Source: Scenedesmus sp. ARA3
Taxonomy: Eukaryota > Chlorophyta > Chlorophyceae > Sphaeropleales > Scenedesmaceae
Length of the DNA: 64,000 nt
Direction: 5' to 3'
NCBI GenBank assembly: GCA_004335835.1
Contig: RWJK01001292.1
Coordinates: 1-64,000 of the forward strand
Shown: piece by piece, positions 1 to 50,687 of the stretch
Layout: each line of letters begins with the position of its first letter
How positions within the stretch are numbered: position 1 is the stretch's first letter
Made by a program: the position numbers and the translations under genes
The notes under the pieces: model-generated
What the model saw: only the letters and a program-made list of their open reading frames with translations
Database searches by the model: none
What the model was told of the DNA's origin: nothing

Positions 1-259
1 AGCCACGCACTCACCAAGCTCCTGCAGTGCTGCCCTGGCACTCTAGAAGCATTTGGTCAAGCAGAACATCACAAGCCATTGATGCGCAACAACAAACAAA
101 CGCAATGACAGACGCTCACCAAGCAGCTGCAGCGCCGCCCTGGCGCCCTGCTGGAGTCAACTGCTCAAGCCAAGTCTGGCCAGCCTTCCAGAAAACCCCA
201 AAAGCCCACACCAGCAACAGCCACGCACTCACCAAGCTCCTGCAGTGCTGCCCTGGCTC
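1..259 (-). repeat. Copies of the SET exon 2 end with donor sites
   Basis: The end of exon 2 (ARAALQELG then GTGAGT, donor after 233) is repeated downstream in gene orientation, with donors after about 120 and 15. Bases 1-41 and 219-259 are near-identical. The copy at 120 reads ARAALQLLG before GTGAGC. These are donor-side echoes of the same exon whose acceptor side is echoed at 370-860. Confidence 0.75.
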
Positions 260-744
260 CCTGCCACTCGCTGCGAGCCTTGTCGCCAGCAGATGCTGCT
301 GCCTCGCATGCATGTGGCAGCTGCAGCTGCTGTATTGCCTGCTGGGGCCAAGCCATAAGGGTTGTGAAATGGCGGGGAAGCTGCTGCAGATAGGGCTGCC
401 AGAATGAGGCAGGGAATTTGGATGCTTCGTGCAACAGGTGGATTGCGAGAATCTGCAGCGGCAGCGGCAGCAGCAGCAGCAGCAGACATCACATTGTATG
501 ACTTGAAGTGGCGGGGAAGCTGCTGCAGATAGGGGTGCCAGAATGAGGCAGCACCTTTGGATGCCTTGTACAGCAGGTGGATTGCCAGGATCTGCAGTGG
601 CAACAGCCGCAGCAGCAGCAGCAGCAGCAGCAGCAGATAATACAATGTATGACATCAAGTGGCGGGGCAGCTGCTGCAGGTAGGGCTGCCAGAATGAGGC
701 AGCGCCTTTGGATGCCTCGTACAGCAGGTGGATTGCCAGGATCT

Positions 745-800
<56 letters not shown>

Positions 801-1953: not shown

Positions 1954-4900
1954 ATGGCTAAGCTAATGAAGGTGAGCAGCAGCAGCAGCACAGCAGCTGT
2001 CAAGCAGCGGCAGCAGTGCAGGAGCAGCACAGCAGCCAGCCAACTGAGAAAGCGTCAGAAACAGCTGCAAGTGTTTGCATCTGGGTGCTAGATTTAAGAG
2101 GCAGCAGGCACCCCCAGCTAGTTCAAAGCAGCTGCTGCACCTGCTTCAAACAGCACGTGTTGCAGTCTGCCTCTTTGTGCTCAGCATGTGAGACGGTAGC
2201 AACAAGCACGGATGTTTTCAGCCGTCACGATTGCAGAGCTGCAGCGTCATGCAGCATCGCAAAAACTGCAGCAGCACAGCAGCAGCAGCAGCAGCAGCAG
2301 TGACGCCGCCCGCGTTGCTCACTTTCCTGCTGGCTCATCACCACCCGTGCTTCCTGCAGATGCTGCAGCCGCTGCAGTCGGAGTATGTAGACCGGCGCTT
2401 CGATGGAACCAAGGTGCGCCAGGCAGATACAGCAGCAGCAGCAGCGGCGGCAGCAGCAGGAGTGCGGCTGGTCAGTTGCATGTGGTCTCTGGAGAGTCTG
2501 GGCAGAGTACAGCAACTGCTGTGGCAGCTGTCGGCCATCCCGTGCAGCCCTTGATTCCATCACTGGGAGCACTGCACATCATTAGTACCTAGTAAGCACT
2601 GTATGTGCGGCACACATTGTGTTTTTTGCTGATAACATATGTGATATGCATGTGCTGCATCTGCTGCCTGCAGGACGAGTTCTTTGAGCAGCTGGGCACC
2701 TCTGCGGTTACCTTTGCATGTGCAGTGCAAGGCATTCAGCACGCTAAAATGCCTGTGTGTGCCTGTGTGTGCCTGTGTGTGCCTGTGCATGCTGTGCAGG
2801 ATGAGTACTTTGAGCAGCTGGACAAGTCAAGCACGCTGTACATAGGCAACCTCTCCTTCTACACCAGCGAAGACCAGGTGAGCGTAATGCAGATAATGTT
2901 GAGGATGCGGCTGCCACAGCCAATGCGGTGATGCAGCAGCAGCAGCAGCAGCAGCTGCAGCAGCCATGGCTGCCAGCCGCAGCAGCAACCATGTACATAG
3001 GCAACCTATTCTTCTACACCAGCGAAGACCAGGTGTGACTGCTGATACAGATGATGAAGTTGATGCAGATGACGGCTCAGCGGCTATCACCGCAATGGTA
3101 GTGATCATCCAGCCACAGCAGCAACGGCATTGGCGGTGCTGGAGAGGCAGGGCGCAGCAGCAGCAACAACCCTGCGCCGCCCAAAGAGGGACGATGCCAG
3201 CAGCAGCAGCCGCAGTAGCAGCATCTGCATCAGCAGCAATTGCTGGTCAATCTGTACTGCTGTTCTGCTGCCCCACCATGGCATTGTATCACCACACTGC
3301 TGTGCTGCTGCGTCACCATGCCACTGCACTGCCACATTGTACCGCTGCTGCAACACTGTGTTGTACTGCCTATGTACCACCGTACTGCTTATGTACCACC
3401 TCACTGTTGTACTGCGGTGCTGCTGCAGATCTACGAGCTGTTCTCCAAGGTTGGCATGGTGCAGCGCGTGATCATGTGCTGCTGCGCTGTTGCTCCACCA
3501 TACTGTTGTACTGCCAATTTACTGTCAATGTACTGCCCTTGCAGATCGACGAGCTGTTCTTCAAGTTTGACGTGGTGCAGCGTGTGATCATGTGCTGAGG
3601 TGCTGCCAATTTACTGCCAATGTTCTGCCAATATACGGCTGCTGCAGATCTATGAGCTGTTCTCCAAGGTTGGTGTGGTGCAGCGTGTGATCATGGGGCT
3701 GGACCGCAACACAAAGACGCCCTGCGGCTTCTGCTTTGTCATGTACCACACGCGAGAGGGAGCGCAGGCGGCAGTCAAGTACCTCAACGGCACGCGGCTG
3801 GACAACAGGTAGGCCTGCTTGATCGTGTTCGAATGTCTGGCCATGCGCAGACTTTTATGGAACAGCCATCGGCTCACACAGCAATGCTAGCGGCAACTCT
3901 GTTTTGTTCCAGTTGCCGCTGCTTTGATGACGTCCTGCTGCAGTTTCTTCTTCGCCAGCTTGATGCATTGTCTGGTTTATGTGTGTGTATGCGCTTTTGC
4001 GCTGCAGGCAGCTGCGCGTGGACATCGATTACAGCTGCAAAATAACCTAATCCAGTTTTGTGCAATCTACTCCTGACTGAATTGTGTGTGCATTGTTGCG
4101 CTGCAGGCAGCTGCGTGTGGACATCGACTTTGCGTCTTTGCGTCAGCTCAACGTGACCAATGAGTCCCATGCCTTTGTGTGTGTACATTGTTGCGCTGCA
4201 GGCAGCTGCGTGTGGACATCGACTACGGCTTTGAGGTTGTTGCACAGGCTTTGTGCAGCAGCCGTTGAAGGCATACTTCTGCTTTGACAGACCCAATGCG
4301 ATGACAATATGGTGTATGTGTCCTGGTGTCATGTGTTGGCTATGCCTGACAGATATTGTTTTATGTTTTTGCGCTGCAGGCAGCTGCGTGTGGACATCGA
4401 CTACGGCTTTGAGGAGGGCCGCCAGTTTGGGCGGGGGCGCAGCGGAGGCCAGGTGCGGCACGCAGCAGCAGCAGCAGCAGCAGCAGCTATTGACACAGCA
4501 GCGGGAAGCTCAGCTGCATGTCATGCAGTTTGCAGAATGCGTGGTTGCGTGTTGTGTTCCACCGCTTGCTGACCTGTCTGTTGAATTGATGGTTCGTTCC
4601 TGGCTCCCTTCAAAAACTCAAACGGAGTTGCATTTCCTGCACAAATACTGTTCATCTGCAGGTGCGCGACGAGTTTCGCACTGATTTTGACGCCGAGCGC
4701 GGCGGCTACGGCCGTGTGGTGGCGCAGCAGATCGCTGCCAGCCAGCTCACCATGTGGCAAGAAGTGCAGGCAGGCGCAGGCATGGGCGCTGCTGCACTTC
4801 TCGGGGCCCCTGGAGCCGCAGTCTTCTTCAATCAGCAGCAGCGCGGCGCGCGGCAGCGGCAGCAGCAGGGTGTGGACGCGCAGAATGCGGACGCGCAGCA

Positions 4901-7242: not shown

Positions 7243-7810
7243 CTAAACGTCCTGCTCGCCCTTCACAGCTGGAGCAAAAGCGTCCACAGTGACTGCACCC
7301 TCACTGCCAGCCGCTGCACCATTCTGCTGCCGGCCGCCATGCATCGCCCCTCCCATTGATGCGTCTTCGCCCCCAGCAGCAGGTGCTGCTGCTGCTGCTG
7401 CTGCTGCTGCCTCCGCTGCTGTAGCTGGATCCATAACCATGTCCTGCTGCGGCACTGGCAGCACTCCTGCACCATGCTGCTGCTGCTGCTGCCAATCATT
7501 TGCAGCCGCAGCTGCTGGCACACCTGATCCACTACCAATCACTGCTGTTTGCAGCGCTGCTGGCCCATCTGCATCAGAAGTAATGGTGCGGCCAGCAGCC
7601 CATCCCCCAGGTGCCCGCTGCAGCTGTGCTGCTGCAGCATCTGTCAGCGTTCCTGCTGCCCCTGTCGTCACAGTGCGCGCATTTGCATTTGCAGCCCAAC
7701 TGCCATTGCCGCTGCCGCTGCCCGCAAGCATGTCAGCAGCAGCACGCTTGCCAAGCAGTGATGCAGCAGCACCTGCTGCCTCGCTACTGCTGCTCACACG
7801 CCTAGCACCC

Positions 7811-11188: not shown

Positions 11189-13473
11189 AGCCGTAACCAC
11201 CGCCGCCATCCTCGTCATCCTCATCTGCATTATCATCCCCTGCCCCGTAACTGTAGTAATCCCCGATCTGCCCCCGCCAGCGCTGACCTGATCTGTCACC
11301 GCCACCCCTTGCTGATCGCTGCATCCTGCTGCTGCCCCATCCCCCTTCACCATCACCTTCATCACCCTCATCACCCCCTTCCTCACCATCCTCATCATAG
11401 TAATACCCTGCCGCCTGATCCTCACCGCCGCCGCCAAACCCTAAACCCTCCTCGTCATCATCCCCCTCAAAACCCTGCTCGCTAAACCGCCGCCGGCCTC
11501 CAGAACCCCGGCCGGCGTCCTCGTCAGCGAGGGCTGCTGCTGCATTGGCCATCGCACGCAGCGCCTGCACAGCACACAGATCGCCGGATGCCATGTTTGC
11601 GAGCATGCCCAGACCCTGCGGGCGCTTGCGCTGCTGCTGCTGCTGCTGCTGGCTGCCTGCAGCTGCTGCTGCCTCATTGTCTTCTTCATCCTCCTCTTCT
11701 TCCTGCTGGTGCTCCCCACATGCATCATGCTGCTGCTGCTGCTGGTCCTCTGCATCATCGTCTTGGTCATCATCTTGCTGCTGCTGCTGCTGCTGCTGCT
11801 CGTCAAGCTGCATTGCATCATCCTCAGCAGCTTGTGCATCACCAGCAGATGCAGCCGTGCCATCTCCTCCTTCACCCCCCGCTGCTGCTGCCTCAAACCC
11901 AAGCTGGGTGCCCTGCTCAGCAGCAGCAGCAGCAGCAGCAGCAGCGCGTGGTGAGCGCCTGCCCTTGCTGGTGCTGCTATCAGCTGGTGCTGCTGACGGT
12001 GCTGCTGCATCCTGCGCAGCTGCTGCTGCTGCAAAGGTAGCTGGTGGCATGTGCTCCTTGTCATCTTCGCCGAGCCTGCGCCATCAGCAGCAGGCATGGA
12101 ACAGCAGCGATCATCAACAGCACTGCCAGAAAGAGCCGAGATCATGAGCAGCAGCTATTAAAGAAGGCCAGGCAAAGAAGGCCGGTCCACCTAGGGAACA
12201 GGTATCACCTGCATGGCAATGCTACATCTTGTGGTGTTGCTGTGCAGCCTTGTGCAAGGTTGCTCAGCCGGCAATTTGCGCAGCGTACAGCACAGAGCTG
12301 GTGTAAGTCAGCCTATCGCAGTAAACCAACCTCCACAGCGATGAGAGGCTGTGTTTGTGAGCGAGCTGCCAATTGCGTTTTGGCGGGCCGCTTACCAAAA
12401 AGCTTTTCATTGTAACGGCTGAGGGCGCGGGTACCCTACCAAAATAGCACAGCGAGTGAAAGTGAAAGTGTCTGGCACACAGCTACAGATCCAGTCCAAA
12501 ATCCACCTTGATAACCAGTCACAAGTCAATGAAATGACATTCCACTTGGGCTGCCCTGCTGCCCTACTCCACTTGCGCCTCTTTTTCACCCTACCAGTGC
12601 AACTGTTGCAGTGTGATCCCAACATAGAACCCGTTACCGACACTCCAATATATCAGCACACCCGTTTCAAACCCAAACACAGTGTAAAAACGATGTCAGC
12701 CCACCTGTGCTGTCCTGCCGCCCGCCGCAGCTTGTGCCTTGCTTCCAGCCCACCAGTGGCCATATCCTCACTGCCAATTGTAAAGAAGCAAGTTGTTGCC
12801 AGCGACCCAGGCAGTTTTACTGATGCTGCTGCTTGGGTCGCTGGCAACAACGTGCTTGTTCACACCTGCCAAGTCCACCGCTCATGACCACGGCTCACAG
12901 TGTTGTAGAGACCCAACAGAACCCGTAAAAGCACAGTGGAAGTCATCTCAATCAGTCAGCATAACAAAAACAAACCCACCTCGGCTGTTCTGCCGCCCTC
13001 CTCCGCTTGCGCCTTGCCTCAGGCCCACCAGTTGCCTTCTCCCCATCATCACTGCCGCCGCCCCCACCACTCTCGCTGCGCCGCACAGCGCCAGGAGCCG
13101 CCGCAGCGACAGCAGCAGCAGCCGCTGCCGCCACAGCTGCCAGCCTAGCAGCAGGATCCTCTGCTGCTGCCGCTGCTGCTGCTGATTCGCTGCCAGCGGT
13201 TGTGGCACCAGACTCAGGCTTTACACTAGCTGCTGCTGCTGCTTTCCCCACAGGCTTGGATCCAGCAGCAGCAGCAGCAGCAGCGCCTGCCTCCGCATTG
13301 CCTGCTGCTGTTGTTGGCGAGCGCTTCTTAACGGCCGGTGCCTTGCCAGCTGCTGCTGCACCTGCTGCTGCTGCTGCTGCTGCTGGTGCCGGTGCGTCTG
13401 GCTCGCCAGGGATGTAGCGGGAGAGGGGGAAGTTGGTCTTGGCTGCAGCGGAGATTGTGGGGCATGGCACAGT

Positions 13474-13518: not shown

Positions 13519-15748
13519 GAACGTTAGGTCACTGCCTGTGCAGTTGGTGGGAGAGGGGGAAGTTGGTCTTGGCTGTGGGGTGAGAAAGGGGGGTATGGTG
13601 GGCTGGGCGCAGTGCATCAGCAGAAGAAAAAGATAGTTAGCTCACTGCTCTTTGCATCTGGTGAGAGAGGAGGAAGTTGGTCTGGGCTGAAGCGGAGGGC
13701 GTGCGGCACATGGTGGAGCATGGCACAGTGCAGTAGCAGCAGCAGGTGGAAGTAAGCTCACTGCTCTTCGCATTCGGCGGCAAATGGAAGAGTTCGCCTT
13801 GGCTGCAGCGGAGAGTGTAGGGCGCAAGGTGGGGTGGGTGCAGTTCAGCATCAGCATCAGCAGCAGCAGCAGCAGCAGCAACTTCGCTCGGCACAAAGAA
13901 AACAGGACACAACAGACACGAAGCACACCACCGCTGGTCCCAACCGGTGTGGCACACGCTTACAAAACAAATACAACCCAGCCTGCTGTGTTTCTGCAGG
14001 CTGTCTGAAGGCTGTGCTGTCCTCATTGTGACCACATCAATTCAGTTCCAAAAACCCCAAAAACTCCTGCCGGCCAGTAGATCTCCACGCCCCTGGCGTC
14101 TTTTCAATGCCAGCGCAAGTTACAAGCACACCAGACCACACAAAACATACGCCTGTAAACCCCCTTTGCACTCACCCAGGCGGCCGTGGATCTCCACCGC
14201 TTTTGCATCGTAGGCAGCGCTCGCCTCCTCGGGCGTGTTGAATGTTGTAGCCCAGCTGGCTGCACAACCCCTAAACCACCAACCCCTAAACCACCCGCAA
14301 ACCACCACCTACCTGCACGCTCATGGATCGGTCCCGCTCTGGCATGACCACAATGCCAGCAGCAGCGCAAAACAAACACAACAACACAAATATCACACAT
14401 CCGAACCAAGCACTCACCCAAACGGCCGTGGATCTCCACTGCCTTGGCATCATACGCCGCCCCCGCCTCCTCGGGCGTGTTGAAGTATCCCATGAAGATC
14501 TTGCGGTTGTTGTAGCCCACAACAACCCAACCCTTGAAACCGCAACCTTGAAACATCTACCCACCTACCTGCCCTTGCATGTCCACAGCTGGCGTCATCA
14601 CAATGCCAGCAGCAGCACAAACCACACAAAACAGCACAACATCAAGCCTGCACTCACCCAGGCGGCCATGGATCTCCACTGCTTTGGCATCATACGCAGC
14701 GCCCGCCTCCTCGGGCGTGTTGAAGTAGCCCATGAAGATCTTGCGGTTGTTGTAGCCCAGCTGGCTGCGCCAGCGGCCTGTCTTCTTGTCCCAGAACACA
14801 CCCCTGCATTGGCAGCAGCAGTAGCAGCAGCAGCACCAGCAGTACAAGTGCGTCAGCAAGTCGGCAGATTATTGTTGTAGCCCAGCTGGCTGCGCCCGTC
14901 TTATTGTCCCAGACCACACCCCTGCGGGCAGCAGTAGCAGCAGCAGCAGCAGCAATGGCAAATGGGTGGCAGCAAGTCGGCGACCTACTGTTGTGGTTCA
15001 ATTGATGACTGCGCCCGCGGCCAGACTTCTTGTCCCAAAACACATCCCTGCAGCGGCAGCAGCAGCAGCATAGGTGTTTTGGTCACTTGACAAGCCAATG
15101 TCTCTGCAGTGCACCCCTCTGGGAGTGGGCAGGGGTGCAGCAGTGCAGCAAAGCTGCGGTGCGGCAGTATGGCTGTACGGCAGTGCAGGGGAACAACCAG
15201 TGCAAGATTGCAGGCATGCTTTAATGTGCTCGGGTGGCGTGTCTCAATTGGGCGAAGGAGCCGTGTGAGCTGCACGCTGCAGGCTAGACCGGTACATACG
15301 AGACACCGCTGCTGTTACTGACAGCAACAACATGCAGGCCACAGTAGTATCAGCTGATCCCTGCTGCTGCTGTTACTGGCAGTGTAAGCTGTCCTACTCT
15401 TGGGACTTTGAGCATGTAATGCATATGTAAGGGATGCAGCAGCGGCAACAGCCCACTTGAGTGCGCTCTTGCCCGGTGGTGCCTTTGGCGCCTTCTTGCC
15501 ACCTCCCTTCTTGCGCGCACCACCACCACTGCCGCCGCCAGCAGCAGNNNNNNNNNNNNNNNNNNNNNNNNNNNNNNNNNNNNNNNNNNNNNNNNNNNNN
15601 NNNNNNNNNNNNNNNNNNNNNNNNNNNNNNNNNNNNNNNNNNNNNNNNNNNNNNNNNNNNNNNNNNNNNNNNNCAGCAGCAGGGCTAGCAGGCTGCTCCG
15701 ACTCTGTTTCTGTCCCTTCATCTTCCCCAGCACTTGCTGCTGTTTCCT

Positions 15749-16424: not shown

Positions 16425-18491
16425 GCACAGACAGGCTCTCAGATTGATTGTTTGTTGGAATCAAGCGAACAAGATTCTCAAAAATGGCAGCAGCGTCCCA
16501 TGCACTGAGTTATCACTTGCAGTCACCCATTACTGCTGTGGTGCCAGCAGTGCCGCTGCTACTGTATGCCCAGCTGGGCACGCACAAGCACGCTGCATGC
16601 CCGCGGGCCCTTAGAAACTACTAAACGCGTAAATAAAACGCACAAGGCATTGCTTAATCGCACCTTGTGCACCGCTCTCGCGGAGCTGCCAGATCTAGTC
16701 TGCAGTGACTTCAGGTGCTGCCTTGCGAAGCACCCACGGGGCGCCAGGGAGACGTTTGCGCTTAAAGGCGAGCCTCCAATATATCTGAAAGCAGCAAAGA
16801 CGGTGATAGCGGGGCATGACTCAAAGCAGCTCAGCAAACCAGGCCGCCTACGTTCACGCGCGCTGCTGCCTCAAACAGTTCGGGATGCTGCCTTCGAGGC
16901 AGACTGCTGGCCACCCACCACACAGCTGCTAAGAAGAACCGTCTACAGGCAGCAGCTCACCGCTAGTGGTGACTCGCGTGGTGCAAGCAGTGTTGTCCAT
17001 GGTTATGACGCGAAGCTGCGTTGTTGCTTCGCTAATCTGGAAAGCGGGGTGTGGAGAGGACGGCATATGGTAATTACCCGGCTCTAGTGACAAACCTCGG
17101 AATCATCGAAGAGGGCAGGTACAGGTGTTTGCCGAGCTAGGGGCACGCAGAGAGCTGAATTATTGCTTAGCTGCAATTGCTGCATCGAATTTTCTGTTTT
17201 AGAGGCAGCTTTCGTCTGTGTATAGGCGGCGGGCTCAGCTCACTGCACTTGCCCTGCGCCTCTCAGTCCAGCCTGCGACTGCTCTTGCTGGGCTGCCCTG
17301 ACGAGACCCTGCTGCTGCTTAGTCAAACACTTGTGTATTTAATGGTGTCCTGCTGCGGCAATGCACGCTTGTAACTACCAAGAACTCAGTGACACCAAGC
17401 TTTGGTGCACAGGTGCTGTTGCTTGTAGTGCCGCAAGGAACAGATGCGCCTGCAGCCAGCAGCTGGCTTCAGCTGCAGCTCCTTTGGGTTCTGGAGGGTA
17501 CAAGCAAGCCTTCAACATGTGGCATGCACACACATAGCCATGCTATCATCAGTACATGGGTTCCAGAACAAGACTGCTGGAGGAGAAGCACTACATGAGT
17601 TGCAGCAACATCACCGCGGGTGCGCAGCAATACAGATTTGCAATGTTATGCTCTGTGACGTGCCTGACCCCTGCAAATAAGGTCTCCATGCATATGAATG
17701 AGACAAGTCGCTCCATCCAAGGCGCTGGCTTATGCCTTGCAGCTGGCCTGTCTTGCAGTTGGCACTGCGTGGTTTAGTCAGCGCATCCATCCTGCAGCAG
17801 CAGCAGCAGTGCTCAAAGCTGCCCAGGAAAGTAAGTCCAGGCGTTGACCAGTCGCATCGAAGCCTCCTGCACCCGGCTGCTACTAGCAGCTAGTAGCTGC
17901 AGCCTGCGGGGCTGTGCGCAAGCGGTAGCACAGCGTTAGCCATGCTGCAGTCTGCCAACCACCTGGCCAGAAAGCAGCCGTGCAAGGTTATACATGGTGT
18001 TTTTCAACAACATTCTTTTGGTTGCAGGAAACAGATGCAGCGCTTGCGTGGTATGCGTTGAAACGCTGGGAGCTGGCAGATACAGGTACCTGAAGCAGCC
18101 ACTATCAACCTGGCCAATCAGGGACATTCATGATAGTTCAGCATGCTGCGTAGAAGTCACTGCTTGTTCATTGCACCTCAGTCAATCATGCATTCGTCAT
18201 ACAAATCACTTCTTTGTCACTGGTTGAACCCTAGCTACAGCCAAGCTACAGCCAAGCTGTGGTGTCACAAGGTTTGGTGCCTTGTGGTCTGCCTGGGATA
18301 GCGAACCAAGCACAGCATACCCGACAATACTACCAAACCTCTGCTTTCTGACTGATCTGTCTATCTGCTTGGCTCGGCTGTGTCTGCGGTGTGTGTCTGC
18401 TTTGTCACTGCTGCAGCTCTGCAGGAACTCAGCATCTATGCTGCTTCCATAGCACCTTAATTCGCCTCGTTTGTCTCTCTTTGCCTTCTAA
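16425..18491. other. Intergenic region
   Basis: Upstream region of the minus-strand AP2 gene and of the first plus-strand family copy. A 173-codon plus-strand ORF at 16566-17087 has no recognisable motif and may be chance. Nothing else is supported. Confidence 0.45.
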
Positions 18492-19527
18492 ATGCTATCG
18501 GCACTCAGAGCAGGCGTGTCTGCCTGCGCAGCGCGTATTCGCTGTCGAGACTCAACAACCTGCTTCATCCAGCAAAAGGAAGGCCTTCGAGGCAGGAGGC
18601 TGACAACACCACCGGTCTATGATCTGCTACTTTATGACGTTCTATGAACTTGCCTTGTGCTAACCTGCAGCAGCAGACTGCAGGAGGGCTCTGTCAGGCT
18701 GAGCCTGGCTGTGCAGCAAGCTATCTTGATCTGCATGCACACATGCTTAGCTATGTAGCCTATAGGTTGCCTCTACTAATCAGTTATACTGACCACTGCA
18801 AACCGCATGGGACTGTGTTGACCATGCTGTCTTCTGCCTGCAACCGCAGGCTGCATCTGCCCCAGGGCAGTCGTGGCCCCACAGCTACACAGCAAGCACA
18901 GCAGCAGCCTCAAACTGCCCAACAGGCTTCCCCAGATCATCCAGCAGACAAACTTGGTCCCTCAACCACCAGCTGCGGGCAGTAAGCAGTGGCGCTGCAT
19001 CAGCAAGTCTGTACCAGCTGCCTGCCTTCACCTTTGAGGAGTGTGCACAGGAGGTGCTGCTGTGCGCAGCACCCAGTGCCACAGCAGAGCAGCGCAGCGC
19101 AGCAATCGCCAGGCTTGCAGCACAACGGGAGCTGATGGGAGAAAGCTGGTGGATGCTTGTGGAGTGCGGCGTGTGGGCACGCGACGCAGCCCCTCCTGCA
19201 GGACCGGCAGGGACGCCTGCGCGTGCAGTGCTGTGCTTCAGCCCTGGCGAGCGTTTCAGTCCACGCGAGTTTGAGGCCCATGCGTTTGCCCTCGACAGCA
19301 ACGGCCTGCCGACTGGCGAGATGTACCAGGACTACCGAGGCAAGCCGAGCGTCTCGGCTTTCGAGCAGAGGACCAACAAAGAGCCAGCGAAGAAGTACCG
19401 CATCAGCTGTGTCATCCTCAGGAATGGCAAGCAAGCCATGCGTACCCCACACGCCATGCTGCGGGTTGAACATTTCCTAGTTGAGTACTTCGGTGAGCAC
19501 AGCGTGCACAGGACGCACAAGCGCAAG

Positions 19528-19562
<35 letters not shown>

Positions 19563-19698
19563 TGCGGCAGCAGCTGGTAGCAGAAGTGGCGGCGCAGTAT
19601 CAGCAGATGCGAGTGGCGTCTATCCTACCTGCGGCAGCAGCATCAGCAGCATCAGCAGCAGCATCAACAGCAGCAGCAGGCGGCGCCGACGTCAGTGA
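18492..19698 (+). pseudogene. Family copy 1 (unrecognised two-exon gene); exon 1 donor mutated
   Basis: Exon 1 (18492-18578, 29 codons) reads MLSALRAGVSACAARIRC..TTCF. Exon 2 (18850-19698) is open throughout: YQLPAFTFEEC, ESWWMLVECGVWA, FALDSNGLPTGEMY, AFEQRTNKEPAKKYRISC, a poly-Ala/Gln tract and a terminal RRRRRQ. At the donor position it has AAAG|GAAGG where copies 2 and 3 have GT, so normal splicing should fail. The long intact exon 2 argues against old decay: either a recent pseudogene or a gene with another first exon. The short Arg/Ala/Ser N-terminus resembles an organelle transit peptide (inference). No known domain identified. Confidence 0.6.
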
Positions 19699-21190
19699 CA
19701 GCGGGTGATGGCGCAGCAGCGGTACCAGCAAGACTTGCGCGTCAGCACCACTATCCCCCGTCATGTGTGAACTGCTGGAGCTGCTTGTGCCATGGTGTGT
19801 GTACGCCTGCCGGCGTTCGTGAATTTCTGAACAGTTGTGTTTCGGCTGTGGCCTAGTGGTGGGTGTGTTTTTGTTTTGGGAGCTTGGATCATCCATGGCT
19901 ATTAGCATGGCTTGCTGCCTTCAGCAACTCAGGCTCCATGTTTGATGCGCGCAGTGTGCAAAGCGAGTGCACCTGGTGTCGTGTTGCGGTTCACCATCCC
20001 TCAGTTTGTTTCAAGGTTCAGTCTGTGAAAAGTGTGGGTGGAGTATGGTTGGTGCTTGAGTATTTGGTCTGTGAAGAGTGTGGGTTGGTGCTGGAGCATT
20101 TGGTCTGTGACAAGTGTGGGTGGGATTGGTTTGTGCTACGTCGGATGCAGAACATGCCAACAGAGATGCCTGCTTCAAGCCTGCCTCCTGTTGAGCTGTG
20201 CTGGCACTGCTAAGCAGCGCCTGGCAGCGGCACAGTGCTCTGTGGCACCATGCATTTCTGGCTGATGCAGCAGTGTGCGCTGCATTAGCCACAATTGCGG
20301 CTTTACTGTTGCGCTGCCTCATGATTTGGCAGCAGGGATGCCTGCAGCCTGATGTGTGCCAATGCGGCAGGCACATTTGTGCACATAGCACACGTTTTTG
20401 TTGTTACCAGGGGCTGGGGGTATCCCATGGCATAAGGTTGCCAGCTGTTAGCTGGCTGTCTACTAGCAGATTCCAGTTGTTGTGCTGTTGCATGTCAGTG
20501 GCAAGGCCCATGGGCCTGCTGGCCAGCAGCTGAATAAGTTGCGGGTCCCCAAATTATTCTCATGCGACACGCATGCCCAAATAAGATGTGCCGCAGCAGA
20601 GCGTGGCAGCTTGCGTAGAGTAGCGTGGCGGGCGGCTTTTCATGGGCAAGCTTATTTTTGTTATGTCTGTGACTGGATGTCACAGCCAACTGGCCAGCAG
20701 ATGCCACGCTGCAACCTAATCGCTGCCATCGATGTTTGCGCCCATAGTGGACACACATGCTGTGCAGTAGAATTGCTGTGCTGTGAACTTGCTGTGGGCT
20801 CAGCAGTTACTTTTGACATGTTGTGCAGGATACATTTAGTCTATGCTTGTTTAAAACACCTCAGTCACACCTCAGTCCAGTCGTTGGTGCAGGTGAGGTC
20901 CCTTGCCATGCTTTTGATACCGCGCGGTACCCGATGGAGCTGTTGTAACCTTGGATGGCTGTTGTCACAGGATCTGGTGCCTTGTGTGCTAAATGTACGT
21001 AACAGAGAGTCAAGCACAGCATCCCCACAGTATGGTTTACTGTCTGTCAACTCATCGGTAGTCCTGGCCGCTTTGCCCGGCCGTGTCTGCGGTGTCAGTA
21101 TGCTTTGTCCCTGCTGCAGCTCTGCACTTCACATCTAGGTTGCCTTCAAAGCACATCGGGTTGCCTCGTTTACCCAGCAGCGCTGTGCTC

Positions 21191-23639: not shown

Positions 23640-23709
23640 GCTGCATCATGATCATGATATGATATGATATATGATATGATATGATATGATATGATATCAT
23701 GATATGATA
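23640..23709. repeat. ATGAT/GATAT microsatellite
   Basis: An AT-rich run of GATAT and ATGAT units, with several internal palindromes (ATGATCATGAT, GATATCATGATATG), lies between family copies 2 and 3. Confidence 0.9.
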
Positions 23710-28113: not shown

Positions 28114-28193
28114 GATCACGTGGCCGAGCGGTCCAAGGCGCTGGAGTAAGGTTCCAGTCCGAAAGGGCGCAGGTTCAAATCCTGCCGTGATCA
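28114..28193 (+). tRNA. tRNA-Leu (anticodon AAG)
   Basis: Full class II cloverleaf. The acceptor stem GATCACG pairs with CGTGATC, with discriminator A. The D stem is GCC/GGC. The anticodon stem CTGGA/TCCAG encloses loop GTAAGGT, giving anticodon AAG. There is a long variable arm (TCC-GAAA-GGG) and a T arm GCAGG-TTCAAAT-CCTGC. No intron. A Pol III terminator TTTTT lies at 28199-28203. CCA is not encoded. An identical gene lies inverted at 41163-41242. Confidence 0.95.
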
Positions 28194-34665: not shown

Positions 34666-37394
34666 GCAGTGACAGGAGTTTGCATCGTCTGTAGGTTAAT
34701 GCCATCAGCAAAGCCGGCTGCCGGCTCAGGCGCTGTTTTCACACAGCCCTTGAGTGCCAGCGAATGCGCAGAAGCTGCCATGGCAAATACACAGGCAGTA
34801 ATGCACACCAGCCGCAGTACCGCACAATATGCAGCTGCCATCACATGAAGCATTCAGCAACAATGGCACATGATACACACCAGCCATTGCAGCCTCACTG
34901 GACAAGACAGTCCGTGATTGCCTTCACTGCCCAACCAGCGCCCCCCGCATGTGATCCGTAGTTATTCAAGTAAGAAGTGATTGCACAGGCTGCTGTGCAC
35001 TGCTGCAACATGGAATCTACGGCAACACACAGCAGCACTGCATAACACGGCGCGAGTCCGACCCTGCTGAGTCAGCAACCCTGTGTTACGCAGCTGCATG
35101 CCACCCTCGCACCTGCCCTCTATTTTGTCGGTGCGCTTGGTCACGGCGCAGGGGTCGCTGCAGTGCGGCACCAGCCGCACATCAATGTACAGTGCGCTGC
35201 CGTCCAGGGGGGTGAAGGCCAGGCCGGCAGTCAGCCAGAAGTGCGCCACCTGAGGGCAGCAGCAGATCACACGTGTTATGCTTGTTGTTACTCTGCTACA
35301 TCAGACCCATGCTTTTGGTCGCGGGTAAAGGCCAAGCCGGCAGTCAGCAAGAAGTGCGCCAGCTGCAGCAGCATGTGGAGCGGAGGCGGTGTTTAACAAA
35401 GGGGCAGCAGAGCATTCCCACAGCCACCTAAGCCAGCAAGGCGAAGCACACTAAACTGCCATCCAGCAGAGCAGAAGAAAACCCAGCTACCAATGTAGGA
35501 TCCTGCCGCCTGCAGTGCGCGCAGCAGGTGCAATACTGCAACATAAGAGGCTGTCATGGCAGCACAGGTACTGCCAAGTGCAGCGCAGGTCAGCAGGGCT
35601 GTGCAATATATACTATATAGTGCACAGCCCTGCTGACCTGCGCTGCACTGAACAGCCCTGCTGCCCTGTGCTGCACTGGAGCACACGTAGTATCAGCAAG
35701 CCAGGCACTGCCCTTCGCCACTACAGCGTGACCAAAGTGGAACACAGACACACACCCGGCGCACACAAGCACACCCTCCAGCAACAGCGCAAGCACACCA
35801 GGTCAGGGTACCAGGTCTGCTTGCGCTGTTGCTTGGCGGTGTGCCCGCGCGCCTGTGGGGGTGGAACGCTCTGGTCGAGCAAAACCAGTGCAACCAACTG
35901 AAGCTGCTGCGGGCATGAGCGCTGTACCCACCCCACCTGTTCTCTTGTACACAAGCTTGTAAAAGTTTGTCCACCAACCTGCATCTTGCTGCCAGGCCAA
36001 AGAACCTCCTTTCACAGCAAGATTGCTGCAGCACTCACCCCACGCACCCACTGGCACTGACTTGCACTCACTCATTTGCAGTCGAGCAAGCCTATACAAG
36101 CCTGGAGAAGCTTGGACAACACTGTACAGCCAGTTCACCCACCTGCAACTCGCTGCCTGGCCCCAGCACATCCAGCCAGCAGATGTAGCTGAAGGGGTGC
36201 TCGCGCGGCTCTGCATGCAGCAGGCTGTGATAGTTGTGCGTGACGGCAAGCGTGGTGAAGGGGCTGCCAAGCAGGCAGGGCGAGGGAAAGTTGGGAGGCG
36301 CGTTGTTGTTGAACTGTGAATGCACCTCGCCATCACCATCTTCCACTTCCTGCTCCTCCTGCTGTTCCTCCTGCTGCTGCTGCTGCTGTGGAGTGTCCCG
36401 CATTCCACTTGCTGCTGCTGCTGCCTCACTTGTGCTGCTGCTGGCAGCACCAGCACCAAGCCCACTGCTGCTGCTGTCGCTGCTGCGGAAGCGCACAGCA
36501 TCTGCTGCCTCCTTGTTGCAGGACCAGGCCAGCTGTGCCACGCCATCGGTCCAAAGGTCAGCGATGCGGCGCAAACCGCCAGCGGTGCTGAGGTCGCGCC
36601 ACACGGCCAGAGAAAAGCTGTCCGCTTCAGCCTGCAGCAGGAACAGAGAGGACATTGAGAGTTACACGTGAGTCGCCAGCAGGGCAGCGGAGGTCGTCAC
36701 GTTACACGGCCAACCAATAGCTGTCCGCCTCAGCCGCTGCACATAGCACCAGTCCAACTACTAGTTAGAAACTTGAGCTGTGTTGCCGGCATTGTCCACA
36801 GTGCCCATGTTCAACGCCGGTGCAACACGACATGTGCGACGGCTGAGAGCAGCCCCCGCAGCATGCTCCAGAAGACAGCCAGCCAATGCAGCGCCTCGTG
36901 CAGAGCGGCAGCCAACCTGACTGTGTGTCTGGCAGCTCGCCAGTGGCACGCATGCACACCCACTCACTAGTACAGACAGAATTTGGGAATGCGCGTACAC
37001 TGCAAGTACAGTATTGTTGTGGGCTGGAGCAGTTGCAAGTTATAGGACTATGCTAGCCTGCGTGCATGCATCCAAGAGCAACCAGCCTGTCAGCTCACTC
37101 ACCGAGGTCATCGTGGTAGCGAGACAGGTGTGAGTGCAGGCCACTGCCGTGGTGCGTATTGATTGAGAACATGATGATGATGAGCACACTCACCGAGGTC
37201 ATCGTGGTAGCGAGAAAGGTGTGAATGCAGGCCACTGCCGTGGTGCGTATGACGGCTGCCTGCCATAGCCATCACCGTGTTGCTTGGGCCCTGCCATGCA
37301 GCAGCCATGCCCTATGCTGCACTTGTGCGCTGCATCAGCAGCGAGCCCCTGCGCGAGTGGAAGATCTGGCTCAGGTGAGCGGCAGGCCCGCCAG

Positions 37395-41162: not shown

Positions 41163-41242
41163 TGATCACGGCAGGATTTGAACCTGCGCCCTTTCGGACT
41201 GGAACCTTACTCCAGCGCCTTGGACCGCTCGGCCACGTGATC
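41163..41242 (-). tRNA. tRNA-Leu (anticodon AAG), inverted second copy
   Basis: The reverse complement is identical to the tRNA at 28114-28193. About 35 bp upstream are also shared (CGATAAACGCCTTGCATGTG and neighbours), and a TTTAGGG-type motif lies at 41318-41332, 76 bp upstream, as in the other copy. Terminator is TTTT on the minus strand (41157-41154). Confidence 0.95.
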
Positions 41243-43162: not shown

Positions 43163-43221
<59 letters not shown>

Positions 43222-43271: not shown

Positions 43272-43330
<59 letters not shown>

Positions 43331-43982: not shown

Positions 43983-44191
43983 CGTCACACAAAAGAGTCC
44001 CAAGAGCAGCCTGGACAGCAGCAGCAGTTGCAGCAGTAGCACGGACAGCGGAAGGAGCGGTTTATGCCAGTGGCTAAACTGGCGGCACCCCGTCCTTGGC
44101 AGCACCAAGCATGCTGAGCGGCTCAACCAATGGATGGCGGGCTGCTCGCCCTATGCAGCAGCGAGAGGCAGCAAGCCGCCTCAGTTTTCTG

Positions 44192-44372
44192 CTGTTCAGC
44201 TGCAGGCGTGGGCCATGGGCCGTGGGCGCCCTGCCACAGGCCTGAGGCTGCAGGCGTGGGCCGTTCAGCTGCAGGCGTGGCTGCAGGCGTGGCACATGCA
44301 CAACCAGCTGGCGCACCTGCCCTGTGGCTGCAGGCGTGGGCCGTGTGCGCCCTGCCACAGGCCTGAGCAGTT
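44192..44372. repeat. Imperfect repeats of CTGCAGGCGTGGGCC
   Basis: Five copies of a CTGCAGGCGTGG core occur. Two are followed by a longer shared block ending CGCCCTGCCACAGGCCTGAG (about 44226-44250 and 44349-44368). CTGCAG precedes each, as in acceptor echoes, but the host exon is not identified. Confidence 0.8.
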
Positions 44373-44656
44373 GTGGGCATGCTCAGGGTGCTTGGCAGAC
44401 AGACAAGCATATGCCATGCTGCTGACCACGGCGCGCTGCTACTGCAAATGTTGTTTTGGAACCAGCAGGTGGGTGCGCGCAGGCCAAATGTTGCCAGTAA
44501 TGAAGAAAGAAAGGAGTAGGTGCTCCAGCTGGTTGTGCATGTTTGGCGCAGCTTCTGGGCTAGTTTGACATGGAGACAAAGCAACAGCTCTACTCATGGC
44601 ATAGAGTACTACTCTGCATGATGCATGAACCAGCAGTCTTGCGCGCTCCCATGTCG

Positions 44657-44829
44657 TGCGTGGCAGCGGTGTGCTGCAGGCGCTGCACTGCAGGCGCATG
44701 AACTGTGCTATCGCAATGCTGGCTGCTGCATTGCAGGCTTACGAACTGTGCTATCGCAATGCTGGCTGCTGCATTGCAGGTTTACGAACTGTGCTATCGC
44801 GATGCTGGCTGCTGCATTGCAGGTGCACG
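44657..44829 (+). repeat. 43-bp tandem repeat containing an intron-end-like TTGCAG
   Basis: The unit AACTGTGCTATCGCAATGCT plus GGCTGCTGCATTGCAGG.TTACG starts at 44701, 44744 and 44787. Each unit ends in CTGCTGCATTGCAG, an acceptor-like sequence. The 43-bp period is not a multiple of three, so it is not a peptide repeat. Confidence 0.85.
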
Positions 44830-46749
44830 GCCACAGGGCATCACATTGGCAGACTGCGCAGCATATCCATTGGTTGGATGTCCCTGCAGCGCCCGCTGCC
44901 ACCCGCCCATGAGCAGGACAGTCTGCAGCCTGCCATTGCTGCTGGCCGGACGTCCACTGCAGTGCAGCGCTGCAGGGTGATCCCTGCTGCTGCTTCCTCT
45001 GGAGGCTGCTGCTCTGGAGAATGTGAGTAGCAAAATGCCATGTGCGAAGAAGCAGCGCTGCATTGCTGCCAAGGCAGCATCTTGCACACCAGCAGCATGC
45101 AGTGTGTTCGTGATGCGGCTGCAGGGTTGCACTTCAGGCACAAATCTCAGCAGGGTATTTGCAGCACCTCCAGGGAATTGTCCGCTTGAGTCAACGCAGG
45201 CAGCTCAGCCAAACCAGCTCACCCACTCATGCCACTGCTACTCGTGCTGCCGCTGTGGTTGCTGCTGCCCGTGCTGCCACTGCTGCCTTGCCTGCATGCT
45301 GCAGCTGCTCGACGATCAAGCCATCGCATTGCAGCAGACTTGCACTCAACAGCTTCGGACTGTTGCAGTTGAACCCTGCAGTTTCAGCAGCAGCATTCGG
45401 CAGAGTGCTCCGGTTGCAGCAGACACACAGATGTTGCAGCAACAGCAGCAGCAGCAGCAGCCTCGGCAGCAGTTGCATTGCTATCTGTTGGTGTGGTTTG
45501 CACTTAGAGCAAGCTGCCGGTGAGGTGGGGTGCCGTTGCGCACCGCAGTAAGACGTCTCTGGATATAACATGAGAGATTTGGTGCTCAAGGGTGTGCAGT
45601 CTGTTTTGCGGTGCTCACTCTCCTTTTCTGGTCTCAGACCTGTGTTCAACCTGTTGTGGCTCATACCATCCAAGATGGTGCCAGGACCCACATGTAACTA
45701 TCCTCTCTCATTGCTGGACTGCTTTGAGACTGCAGCCGCTGCCCTGCCGCCAAACAGTAACCGCCAGTGCGCCACTGGCAGCTATATCCTGATGCAGATG
45801 GAACATGGGGGTCACTGTGGCACGGCATAGCCACCAGATTGGCGGCACCACACCTGGGCACTGGTTGGCTGTGGGAGCTTGTTTGCATGCCTCTACTGCT
45901 GTGGCCTGTCTCATGCTAACCGCACTGCGGCATGTGCGACAGTGTTTGCTGCTGCAAATGCTGCAACAGCTGCGTGGTGGGCTTGATAATCTGGTTGTCG
46001 ACCATGCTGCTTGCAGGACAGCGGCATCAGTGACAGATGTGTCTTGATGCGTCATATCTAGCAGTGCTCGGTGGTGGTCTTGATTGTGGTCACACTGCCA
46101 ATGTGCAGGCGCACAGCAGAAGCAAGGAATGTCACTGGCAGTTGTTGGTTCTTGAGCCGCTTGTGAAGCCACAACCTCGATGTTGCTTGCTTCATGGTTT
46201 CGGATAAACATGTACTGTGTTGCTATTCCTTTGAACGTTTCCCAACCTGCTCTGCGCCTGATGTTGATGCAAAGAAGCTAGTGTGTCCCACCACTGGTTT
46301 GTAGACTTGGGATTATCAGTGCCATGTCTGCCAGGCTGGGCCTTCGGCTGCATGCAGAACATCCCAAACATCCCATTTCCTTGGGAGTTGGGTACTGGAG
46401 GGATGTGCAAGCGGCACAAGCAGGAAGTTTCATGAAGAAGACACTGTGGTACTGCAGGCTACCACCAGAGAGACGCGAGGGCGAGGATTTACCCCATATC
46501 AGGACGATATTCTTATTAAAAACGAATGAGGTGTGCGAAACTGGCAGATTTGGGTGTCGGCGGTCACTCGACAGAGGACACCATGTACCCCTCTGGTATA
46601 ACACTTCCCTCCTGTGCGTGCCATATTTGGCCATGTGCTCCGCGTGATCGCCAAGTCGAGGTCAAGGGGATAGTGTCTTTGTTCAAGTGTTGGTGTTAAG
46701 CACTTATAACTGTGCTTCGGGCAAGTTGGTTGCAAGCAGCAGCAGCACA

Positions 46750-49700
46750 ATGAAGCTCGGCGCGGTAGCCCTGGGCTGCCTCTGCCTGCTGGCAGTCGTC
46801 AGTGCAGACGTGCTGTTTGAGGAGAAGTTTGACGGTGAGCAGGCGCTGCATCTTGGACGCGAGGCCAGTCAACACTTCTAGAAGGCACTCGGGTGGTTGC
46901 AGGCTTTATGAGCATTGCGCGCCTCGAGCGTGCTACGAGGCATTCTTCCTTGACGAAAGAAGATGTATCCAGCAACCGCAATAGCCCCCAGCCGTGTCTG
47001 TAGCGGTGCTGCTGTTCGGTGTAGAAGTGTGCTCGATCCAGGCTCCCCGGGCCCCGATCCCCATGAATCAACACTAACATATTGCTGTTTTGTTTGGTCC
47101 CATGCTCGCAGCCGGCTGGGACAAGCGGTGGCAGAAGTCCAGTTGGAAGGAGAGCGATGGCAGTGCGGGCAAGTTCACTTGGACCGCAGGCAAGTGGTAT
47201 GGCGACGAGGAGGCCGACAAGGGTATCCAGACAGGCCCCGACTCCAAGTACTTCGCGCTCTACTCCGAGCTGAAGAAGGCATACACCAACGAGGACAAGG
47301 AGCTCATTGTGCAGGTGGGCAGCAGGGGCGGGAATGCAGCTGCTGCAGTTGGCCGGCAAATTGATATGCTGTCCTGCAGCTGTAACATCCTTGGGGCCAC
47401 TAGAGTTAACTGACCAAGGTCTGCTTGCTGTCTGCTGTCTGCTGCATGCAGTTCTCTGCAAAGCACGAGCAGGACCTGGACTGCGGTGGCGGTTACATCA
47501 AGCTGCTGCCAGCATCCAGGTGTGTTGCAGCAGCAGCAATCTCTACAGGCTGCTTATGTGCTCAAGAGTTGTCCGAGGTGCTGTGCTGGGTAATCATGTG
47601 CTGCTGCTGCTGCACATGTTTCTGCTTGGTCTCTCTGCTGCTCCTGCTGCTTTGTCACGCTGCTGCTCACGTGTGCTTGTGGATCTTCCTGCAAGCATGC
47701 ATGTCCTTTCATGTCCTGCCCTGCCCTGCATGTGCTGCTTCCCCTCTGCCACCCACATCACATCTTCTGTGTTTCCTGCAAACCTCGCCTGCCTCCTACC
47801 AACCGCCACACCAACTAACCGCCGACGCAACAACAGCGGCAAGAAGATGAAGGACTTTGGTGGTGAGACGCCTTACTCCGTCATGTTCGGCCCAGACATC
47901 TGCGGCTACTCCACTCGCAAGACGCATGTGATCCTCACCTATGATGGCAAGAACCACCTGGTGAAGAAGGACATCAAGGCAGAGACTGACCAGCTCACAC
48001 ACGTGTACACGCTGCGCCTCATGCCCAACAACACCTACGAGGTGCGCACTGCTGCTGTTAGGCCTACTTGCATACAGCTTGATGTGACGCTCATGGTGTT
48101 TGTTGGTGTCAGCGGGAGGTTGGTGAGAGGGAGGGGCCTTGCAGGAGGGCGCAGGGCTTGTGCAGCATGCTGGCTGGCATGGCTAGCGCAAAGGCAGTCG
48201 CTGTGGCGTGCTGGGCAGTTGTTGGATGTGTGCATGACAGGAGCAGATGCGCGCAGCTGCTGTCGTCAGCTGCTGCTGACATGGTATTGATGCTGCTATT
48301 GCCCCGTGTGCTGACATGCGCCTCGCTGCTGCTGACTGTGCTGCAGGTGTATGTTGACCTGAAGCAGGTGGAGTCTGGCTCCCTGTATGATGACTTTGAC
48401 ATGCTGGCACCCAAGACCATCAAGGTGGGCTGCGCTGCCGCTGGTGCTGTCGGGGCTTTTCTGGGTCTGCTGTGCTGTTGTTTCGGAGCTCTTGCAGCGC
48501 AAATGTAGTGCTGTGTAGTGCCCCTGGTTGTGTCCAGCAGGCGTTGCGGCGCCTGCGTGCAGCTGATACAGGGAAGCGTGAGCGTCAGCCAGTGGAAGGA
48601 AGCAGTGGGCTGTCTTCAGCATTGCTCTTGTGTGTTGCGCTCTGTCAGCCCACCTACATGTCGACCCGAATGCGTACGCCTTCTTGATGTCAGCAGCATG
48701 CCATGTCACCAGCTGACTGGTTCCTTGAAATAATGAACTCTGCACAATTTCACATTTCCTGCATTGCCTTGGCTCTGCCTTGCCGCTGCTGCTGCTGCTG
48801 TCATTCGCAGGACCTCACTGGGATGTGCACAAGAAGATTGCTGACCCAGCAGCAGCACCATCCCCATACACTCATGCCTTGCACTGCCTGTGCCGCCTTG
48901 CTGCTGCTGCTGCTGTCACTTGCAGGACCCCAAGGCCACCAAGTCTGAGGACTGGGATGTGCACAAGAAGATTGCTGACCCAGCAGCAGCACCATCCCCA
49001 TACACTCATGCCTTGCACTGCCTGTGCCGCCTTGCTGCTGCTGCTGTTACTTGCAGGACCTCAAGGCCACCAAGCCTGAGGACTGGGACGAGCGCAAACT
49101 TCCTTGCACCCCGCATATCCTATACTGCCCTTGCTGCTGCTGCCTGCAGGACCCCAAGGCCACCAAGCCTGAGGACTGGGATGAGCGTGAGAAGATCGCT
49201 GACCCCGAGGACAAGAAGCCTGATGGCTGGGATGACATCCCCGCCACCATTGTGGACCCCGACGCACAGAAGCCCGAGGACTGGAGCGACGAGGACGATG
49301 GCGAGTGGGAGGCGCCAACCATCCCCAACCCCGAGTACAAGGGAGAGTGGAAGCCCAAGATGTGAGCGGCGCGGATTGAAGCTGCCTGCCGTGCATGCAT
49401 ATGCATACAGCTGCCTGCAGTTCAAGATGCTTTTGCTGAACTCACCGCCAATGCTGCTTGTAGGAGGGTGTGGCCGAGGGCGTGTGCGCTGCTGGGGGTC
49501 GTGTGTGGAGGTGGTAGCAGCAGGCAGCAGTGACGGTAGTGGTGTTGTAGCTGTGGCTGTACATGCGCGCGCTCTGCAGTGGTGTGCTGCTGCAGCAACG
49601 CAGCTGCGCAGTGCATGGTACGGCTGACGCCCATGCTCTTGATCCTCGCTTCCTCTGTGGCGTCCACTGCACTGCATCCACTGACGCCGGCTGCTATGCT

Positions 49701-50687
49701 GCCTGCCACCCACCACCCACCACACCGCACCCTATCCCTGCAGGATCGACAACCCCGCCTACAAGGGCATCTGGGTTGCGCCCGACATCGACAACCCGGA
49801 GTACAAGCACGACGACAAGCTGTACCTGCAGAAGGACATCAAGTACGTTGGCTTCGAGCTGTGGCAGGTCAAGTCCGGCACCATCTTTGACAACATCCTG
49901 GTCACCAACAGCCTGGAGGAGGCCAAGAAGTTTGCGGAGGACACCTGGGGCAAGACCAAGCACGGCGAGAAGGAGATGCACGACAAGATCAAGGAGGTGA
50001 GCAGCGCTGCGCAGCAGGGGCCCCGGCTGAGCGACTGTTGTAGTGAGGGGGTGTTGTGCAGTGAAGGGAGCAGGAGATGCACGACAAGATCAAGGGGGTG
50101 AGCAGTGCTGTGCAGCAGGGGGGCGGGGTGAGCAACTGTGTTGTTGTGAGGGGGTGCTGCGCAGTGAGGGGGACCAAGAGATGCGCCAGTCAGGGAGATG
50201 TGCGACCTTGCTGGGAAGGCCAAATGGGCATGTGCTAGACGAGATGGGGGCGCGAAGCAGCTGGGTGTGCAGGCACGGGGAGGTGTGCAGCAGCAGCAGC
50301 GGGTTGACACAAGCCACATGTGTTTAAAGGTTCACAGATGACAGGGCACTGCCTGGTGTGTGTGTGTGTGTGCGTGCTGCTGCTGCTGTAGCCTCTTGTG
50401 CACATCGGCGCTAGCCACGCACGGATAGGATTCTGCATTGACTGTCATCCCTCCACTGCTGTTCTGACGACTGACTGCACGGTGCCCCTGCACATGCCTC
50501 TTTCCTGCAAACTCTGCAGGAGAAGAAGAAGGAGGAGGACGGCAAGAAGACTGACGACGATGCCAAGAAGGGCGGCGATGATGATGATGACGAGTATGAC
50601 ACCGAGGATGGCGATGACAAGAAGGAGGCACCCAAGGCCACCCTTGAGGACAAGGCCGAGGATGAGGATGAGAAGGATGAGCTGTGA
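46750..50687 (+). CDS. CRT: Calreticulin
   Basis: ER-lumen Ca2+-binding lectin chaperone for glycoproteins. Eight exons join in phase: 46750-46834, 47112-47314, 47452-47519, 47837-48041, 48347-48424, 49150-49361, 49744-49996 and 50520-50687, giving 423 aa, normal for the family. Signal peptide [19 protein letters not shown], then [15 protein letters not shown]. The globular lectin domain includes the GGGYIKLLP and MFGPDICGY segments. The P domain has KPEDWDE and KPDGWDD repeats, then [17 protein letters not shown]. The C domain is Lys/Asp/Glu-rich and ends KDEL. The complete protein is obtained only by using the last of four exon 6 copies and the first of the exon 7 copies, which confirms which copies are decoys. 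A TGTAA motif, typical of chlorophyte polyadenylation, occurs near 51555, possibly too far to be this gene's. Confidence 0.97.
48811..49101 (+). repeat. Three truncated copies of calreticulin exon 6 start
   Basis: Acceptors GCAG followed by GACCCCAAGGCC-type sequence lie at 48811 (internal deletion, [13 protein letters not shown]), 48926 ([19 protein letters not shown]) and 49057 ([14 protein letters not shown]), before the intact exon at 49150. The first two are about 115 bp apart and share the intervening CAGCAGCAGCACCATCCCC block. None has a usable donor at the point where it diverges. Confidence 0.93.
50072..50098 (+). repeat. Donor-side copy of calreticulin exon 7 end
   Basis: GGAGATGCACGACAAGATCA then AGGGG|GTGAGCAGTG copies the exon 7 end ([10 protein letters not shown], donor after 49996). 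A third, weaker copy (CCAAGAGATGCGCCAG) lies at about 50172. The following GCTG-GCAGCAGGGG intron bases are repeated too. Confidence 0.88.

Follow-up and report, generated by a model that had tools for sequence, protein, structure and literature searches.

Truncated exon edges repeated in the introns of Scenedesmus sp. ARA3: tandem duplication across splice junctions and probable later exchange with the exon

Introns of the green alga Scenedesmus sp. ARA3 contain truncated copies of the edges of neighbouring exons together with their splice sites (hereafter echoes). A first-pass annotation had pointed them out in several unrelated genes of a 64,000-nucleotide (nt) stretch of contig RWJK01001292.1 (hereafter the window; C942 among the 1567 contigs, 87,267,035 bases in all, of the genome searched), and both reading by eye and alignment bear this out. 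Our results reveal that segments of ∼90–260 nt straddling splice junctions have been repeatedly duplicated in tandem, and that introns hold the resulting truncated exon edges with their splice sites. In the CBP20 gene, short RNA-like contigs show that the message uses the last acceptor and that the echoes leave with the intron. The echoes are real features of this assembly, occur widely among the sampled genes and have received little description. Boundary-crossing tandem duplication followed by sequence exchange between echo and exon is probably the correct explanation.

The genome-wide sample comprises 88 exon loci, which are the top-scoring matches to each of four Pfam families (SET 8, Pkinase 30, tRNA-synt_1 20 and Cpn60_TCP1 30) and not a random sample, with up to 1500 flanking bases each (downstream flanks are short at L044, L047 and L088). 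After microsatellite masking, 39 of 175 flanks contain a strong match (score ≥25) to the adjacent coding segment on the same strand, and 0 of 175 contain one in inverted orientation. As a control, 13 of 2077 pairings with the flanks of other loci reach score 25, and the best six are between loci on the same contig. Because the match is interrupted by stops at five loci (L007, L010, L016, L029 and L048), these were left out of the codon-position and binning analyses; the strict set consists of 73 echo copies at 26 of the remaining 83 exons (2 SET, 4 kinase, 5 synthetase and 15 chaperonin). Within the window, 1548 segments of 80 nt were compared with the surrounding ±700 nt in both orientations. 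Direct repeats turned up for 121 of them and inverted repeats for 5, which indicates that the window echoes exceed chance. These direct-repeat segments correspond to exon edges and the end of the RAP gene, except for apparent minisatellites (44.2, 44.7 and 60.7 kb) and an open-frame repeat (25.5 kb).

Echo position is tied to existing splice junctions. For the 20 echo exons with two clear edges (L003, L005, L015, L022, L037 and L080 were left out of the 26), the start of 24 of 26 acceptor echoes and the end of 33 of 36 donor echoes coincide with the exon edge to within 3 nt, i.e. 57 of 62 reach the existing junction. Aligned lengths are 22–122 nt, always at one end of the exon, and the 62 spacings between copies range from 90 to 262 nt (median 127). 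Direct, adjacent copying across the boundary is found for the exon part and the splice site. This supports the earlier proposal of small tandem duplications with one exonic and one intronic breakpoint. The observation that the intact exon is the last acceptor copy and the first donor copy also holds, but it is no independent evidence because any direct tandem duplication across a junction leaves such an order.

If duplications of the observed unit sizes were placed at random, those lying wholly in introns should account for 51% (CCT5), 40% (calreticulin) and 47% (CBP20) of intron-only and one-junction duplications taken together (two units were removed from the last calreticulin intron in this model, though one full echo is listed there). 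In these three fully modelled genes there are 19 edge arrays (CCT5 13, CBP20 4 and calreticulin 2), and repeat scans of the window and of CCT5 show no intron-only array. The chance of 19 versus 0 is ∼3 × 10⁻⁶ at equal visibility, with the reservation that arrays within a gene are not independent, and ∼0.002 if only 40% of intron-only arrays are visible, a share taken from the 25 of 62 adjacent copy pairs with recognizable filler homology.

The CCT5 gene (contig C1032) provides a complete example. Four overlapping loci give 10,574 bases with 13 exons that encode 536 residues and no stop; 27 echoes occupy 13 of the 24 internal exon sides, with no inverted matches. Among 242 CCT5 intron windows outside exons and echoes, 18 have direct and 10 inverted matches at that low threshold, and the coordinates place the 18 direct ones within or adjoining the intron-derived fillers of echo arrays. 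Exon 11 has six donor echoes ∼107 nt apart, of which two are identical across the printed unit, fillers included. Acceptor and donor echoes of CCT5 exons 3, 4, 7, 9 and others tend to be complementary exon pieces. Elsewhere, filler types at L075 recur in an order that suggests multi-unit duplication when read by eye, and the intron filler between donor echoes at L062 (1669–2100) contains many GGGTTTAG-like motifs reminiscent of plant-type telomere repeats. A public Tetradesmus obliquus (T. obliquus) model, A0A383W8E2, equals our 536-residue CCT5 plus 15 residues (DNMVRVEQYAMRAFA) at the exon 11/12 junction; this insert matches an exon-11 echo and is one residue off the echo at 8227 here. In Scenedesmus NREL 46B-D3, the end of CCT5 exon 7 is odd and the protein terminates after exon 11, and the CCT5 protein P0160, from a source with transcript-like names, also breaks off after exon 11. 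Echoes are possible in both.

How the cell treats the echoes could be checked in one gene, CBP20, which spans 3296 nt from start to stop codon. The spliced protein P0241 agrees with our CBP20 model except for one residue and is listed on contigs of ≤1516 nt, which we take to be assembled RNA reads, interpreting the source label 'lgn' as that of a public read-assembly collection. A full open reading frame on contigs so much shorter than the gene implies that the exons are spliced past the echoes. Each exon occurs once: the last acceptor is used for each of exons 3, 4 and 5, with six acceptor echoes passed over, and exon 3 uses its first donor. The cell therefore appears to skip these decoy splice sites in CBP20, and the suggestion that the copies survive because an intact splice pair still works is supported.

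Skipping bears on the idea that echoes are functional alternative exons maintained by selection, which we consider very improbable. Such exons would account for the low ratio of nonsynonymous to synonymous divergence described below, for the retention of 52 of 57 echo splice dinucleotides (AG 20/24, GT 32/33) and for the public CCT5 model, which uses the exon-11 echo as a 45-nt in-frame exon. However, echoes are truncated with no visible splice partner at the cut end, and mutually exclusive exons would be complete copies with both splice sites, whereas the 62 echoes align to one exon end only. Gaps occur in the strict alignment of 12 of 73 echoes, and their net length is never divisible by three. 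Nonsynonymous echo changes are near random in severity, if slightly milder (mean BLOSUM −0.09 versus −0.38 for random changes, z 1.8), with one stop versus 3.8 expected. Frameshifting gaps together with this near-random severity suggest that many echoes are not working exons now, and the alternative-exon explanation was dropped on these gaps and on the skipping of the CBP20 echoes.

Although spliced out where this can be followed, many echoes have a coding signature. Mismatches between echo and exon are distributed as 94:80:267 over codon positions 1, 2 and 3 (∼1550 sites each), i.e. ∼5–6% at positions 1 and 2 and ∼17% at position 3; those between echoes are distributed as 94:104:259, with the caveat that echo–echo pairs within an array are not independent. 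Nonsynonymous divergence (dN) between echo and exon is 0.053 and synonymous divergence (dS) 0.282, so that dN/dS is 0.19 (0.14–0.27 by bootstrap over exons); between echoes the ratio is 0.25. Of the 26 exons, 22 have more mismatches at position 3 than the average of the first two positions, and three have fewer. Base composition is ruled out as the source of the excess at position 3, which holds whichever of the four bases is considered. In CCT5, where exons are exact, the distribution is 26:22:93. The third-position mismatch is already 14% (25/174) in the ten echoes without any change at positions 1 and 2 and rises to 22% in the most-changed class, as would be expected of copies that differed synonymously from the outset and decayed afterwards.

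Two cases in the window illustrate the different fates of exonic and intronic parts. The RAP copy mismatches its parent in 3 of 142 coding columns and in 4 of 50 columns after the stop, then in 26 of 50, an abrupt identity edge like that of a conversion tract. In an AP2 donor echo the exon part is matched at 93 of 100 bases and the following 60 bases at 27; seven codons differ in the first such echo, all synonymously.

Plain tandem duplication followed by neutral decay, in which synonymous change in the exon would be the sole source of the third-position excess and the fillers would simply be old, is distinctly unlikely. Calreticulin and most CBP20 echoes do look neutral, and the near-random severity of nonsynonymous changes is as expected under decay. 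Yet this process is estimated to yield at most ∼1.7–2 third-position changes per first- or second-position change, against ∼3 observed and ∼4 in CCT5, and both the 14% third-position intercept and the abrupt edge of the RAP copy are at odds with it. Neutral decoys should not differ mostly at third positions, as the echoes do. The view of a genome-wide mutational habit supplying decoy splice sites stands as regards the many genes involved, but many of the copies are not simply decaying decoys. Given the third-position excess, and an exon part that outlives the intron part, simple duplication does not suffice, and either exchange with the exon or a duplication that joined diverged alleles has to be invoked as well.

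Divergence of allelic type also raises the question of an assembly artefact. A diploid with strongly diverged haplotypes, interleaved by a scaffolder or gap filler, could make alignable exon edges appear twice. Among T. obliquus strains, the PacBio assembly of DOE0152z (208 Mb) is nearly twice the size of the Illumina assembly of UTEX 393 (109 Mb), a sister strain is called 'likely diploid' in the available part of its description, and the synonymous-type divergence between echo and exon resembles that between alleles. Runs of N occur in 2 of 26 echo loci versus 0 of 62 others, although none lies within 150 nt of an echo. Furthermore, echoes tend to form complementary halves (11 of 15 exons are within 30 nt of abutting, permutation fraction 0.007; the other three statistics give 0.07, 0.25 and 0.50). 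Nested insertion was also considered for these halves and dropped, the evidence being only suggestive. By contrast, 20 arrays contain 3–6 mutually different copies (though a few pairs differ by just one or two bases), too many for two haplotypes, and a two-haplotype chimera was dropped as the main cause. Arrays of regular period with homologous fillers do not fit such a chimera either, and frameshifting gaps and near-random nonsynonymous severity indicate that many echoes are no working alleles. The assembly contains no second calreticulin region but only three short, weak matches, and the exon-11 echo lies inside the public T. obliquus CCT5 model (the full independence of that assembly is uncertain). 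A two-haplotype assembly artefact is therefore disfavoured, and we regard it as unlikely.

Boundary-crossing duplication with later exchange could operate as follows. Duplications would be tolerated since the complete exon retains a functioning acceptor and a functioning donor; unequal exchange may then lengthen or shorten the arrays. Ongoing exchange between echo and exon, by gene conversion or, if the alga is sexual or diploid, by recombination between diverged alleles, would hold the exon-derived part of many echoes near a functional exon that varies synonymously, whereas the intron-derived filler would diverge. Introns would grow as a result, and decoy splice sites would be in constant supply. 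The exchange step in particular is our inference.

Several observations weigh against this explanation. Homologous intron fillers are recognizable in only 25 of 62 adjacent copy pairs (about 20 of 31 internal pairs and about 5 of 31 at array ends), whereas simple recent duplication predicts otherwise. Coarse bins show no edge peak, the share of 80-nt windows with a direct repeat being 10–21% in every position class of the 83 loci (flank windows include the echoes themselves). Coding segments in the 83-locus codon count are Pfam matches, which overrun the exon by a few bases at some loci. Moreover, the strong third-position excess stems from the chaperonin, synthetase and kinase loci and from the SET-like gene of the window (12:4:19 by codon position over five echoes). 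Window echoes outside that gene give 15:14:30 over 16 echoes, which is close to neutral (this sum leaves out the second AP2-gene exon, whose reading frame is not established, and two cross-matches between calreticulin exons 6 and 7).

A stronger and more tentative version, which we think possible but doubtful, is that sequence passes between exon edge and echoes frequently enough for the array to renew the working edge from time to time, the array then being a living archive. If so, selection on the exon would purge amino-acid changes from the echoes and leave a coding signature in intronic DNA, and intron growth, synonymous variation and new splice choices would all derive from one recombination process centred on exon edges.

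The individual echoes of the window are distributed as follows. Alignment of exons to their own flanks, combined with reading by eye, gives 16 acceptor-side and 8 donor-side echoes in named genes, compared with the 18 and 10 first reported; two further donor-type repeats near 37.1–37.3 and 37.6–38.2 kb were seen by eye only. On the reverse strand, an intact SET-like (SETD3-type) exon at 233–452 has three acceptor-side echoes (504–591, 657–742 and 807–837) and two donor-side echoes (120–151 and 15–44). Its name rests on SETD3 chains (E 7e-5), and a Pfam search of this gene gave no match. CBP20 lies on the forward strand, and its name, like that of RAP, is supported by searches (for CBP20, as an RRM/CBP20 protein). 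The intact exons come from the gene model, alignment and P0241 for exon 3, from the gene model and alignment for exon 4 and from alignment for exon 5: exon 3 (2800–2877) has an acceptor-side echo at 2674–2698 and a donor-side echo at 2992–3032; exon 4 (3648–3808) has acceptor-side echoes at 3429–3476 and 3545–3592; and exon 5 (4380–4452) has acceptor-side echoes at 4008–4036, 4107–4140 and 4202–4236. Flank alignment found no echo of exon 6, which was read in the wrong frame there. The CBP20 protein shares 99% identity with one T. obliquus entry and 97% with OEZ85_014048.

Further along the reverse strand, the AP2-domain exon (14658–14803), identified by alignment and a Pfam match of 31.5 bits that is under the Pfam cut-off of 33.3, has acceptor-side echoes at 14872–14921 and 15006–15047 and donor-side echoes at 14418–14519 and 14176–14254. 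The next exon of this gene (12980–13442) has an acceptor echo at 13549–13572 and donor echoes at 12709–12770 and 12549–12580. Also on this strand, a copy of the RAP gene 3′ end at 29666–30094 (parent 30401–30823) was confirmed by alignment, as had been claimed, and an exon at 35113–35249 of a putative 'oxygenase' gene has an acceptor echo at 35323–35361. Two pieces of this gene were searched and neither supports the 'oxygenase' name given in the first annotation. The forward-strand calreticulin gene has eight exons that yield an open 423-residue protein, 99% identical to a T. obliquus protein (four differences by eye in 423); a calreticulin of that species is listed as OEZ85_014058. The present alga is of T. 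obliquus type. Its exon 6 (49150–49361; gene model and alignment) has acceptor-side echoes at approximately 48811–48847, 48926–48981 and 49057–49094, and repeats starting at 48822 and 48956 are identical across 91 aligned bases. Exon 7 (49744–49996; gene model) has a donor-side echo at 50068–50095. The tag OEZ85 presumably denotes strain UTEX 3031 and A0A383W8E2 strain UTEX 393; the listings give T. obliquus only.

Other repeats were seen in the window. A palindrome-like inverted repeat (35555–35668, 84% over 117 columns) lies in the gene region at 34–39 kb, and minisatellite-like blocks are present at 60661–60900 and 44181–44860, none of them seen at exon edges. Two tRNA-Leu (AAG) genes (28114–28193, forward; 41163–41242, reverse), separated by 13 kb, are embedded in a 190-bp inverted repeat with 86% identity. 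At 18260–25745 there are three long, diverged direct copies (∼71–73% identical over 1.4–1.9 kb), perhaps a tandem gene cluster. Between 7243 and 12050, several frames on both strands stay open over very long stretches of low complexity in which poly-Q and poly-A abound.

These observations matter in several respects. In this genome, intron growth by boundary-crossing duplication may be visible at many ages, and the arrays allow a test of how the spliceosome passes nearby, near-exact decoys. Because non-coding copies carry a coding signature, the exchange of sequence between exon and intron can be put to the test. In addition, gene models in this family may wrongly include echoes as exons, as is seemingly the case in the public T. 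obliquus CCT5 model.

Several known systems also enlarge introns or reshape genes. Introner elements are dispersed repeats that mass-produce splice-site-bearing intronic sequence, whereas echoes copy the neighbouring exon; the one gene region searched against the genome, that of calreticulin, has only three short, weak matches elsewhere. Zhuo et al. (2007) reportedly derived human introns from tandem arrays that, like echoes, lie inside genes and are tied to alternative splice sites. In the Rogers/AGGT model and in Drosophila novel introns, as far as the available part of the account describes them, an exonic tandem duplication carries a proto-splice site (PMC2891723). Local tandem duplication reshapes gene structure in both systems, but there the unit is wholly exonic with AG|GT inside, whereas 57 of our 62 echoes reach an existing junction and no new intron position was seen. 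The closest likeness is a potato RdRp-type gene, for which one boundary-crossing tandem duplication has been described (PMC4974935). According to the available portion of that report, a direct tandem copy includes an intron end and the start of the next exon, a formerly exonic piece turns intronic and the signals are inherited from the parent junction, all as observed here. That case concerns one gene with two copies, whose mRNA retains the duplicated piece of exon, the copies being separated by a new intron. Our alga, by contrast, has tens of arrays, which occur on either side of exons and comprise as many as six echoes, and the CBP20 echoes are removed in full. The first-pass statement that no description of the pattern existed is thus qualified by this single case, though searches of an open-licence library brought up no genome-scale pattern of exon-edge echo arrays. 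In brief, as far as we know the type of duplication has been described in a single potato gene, and what is new is how widely it occurs here, together with the multi-copy arrays flanking exons on both sides and the coding signature.

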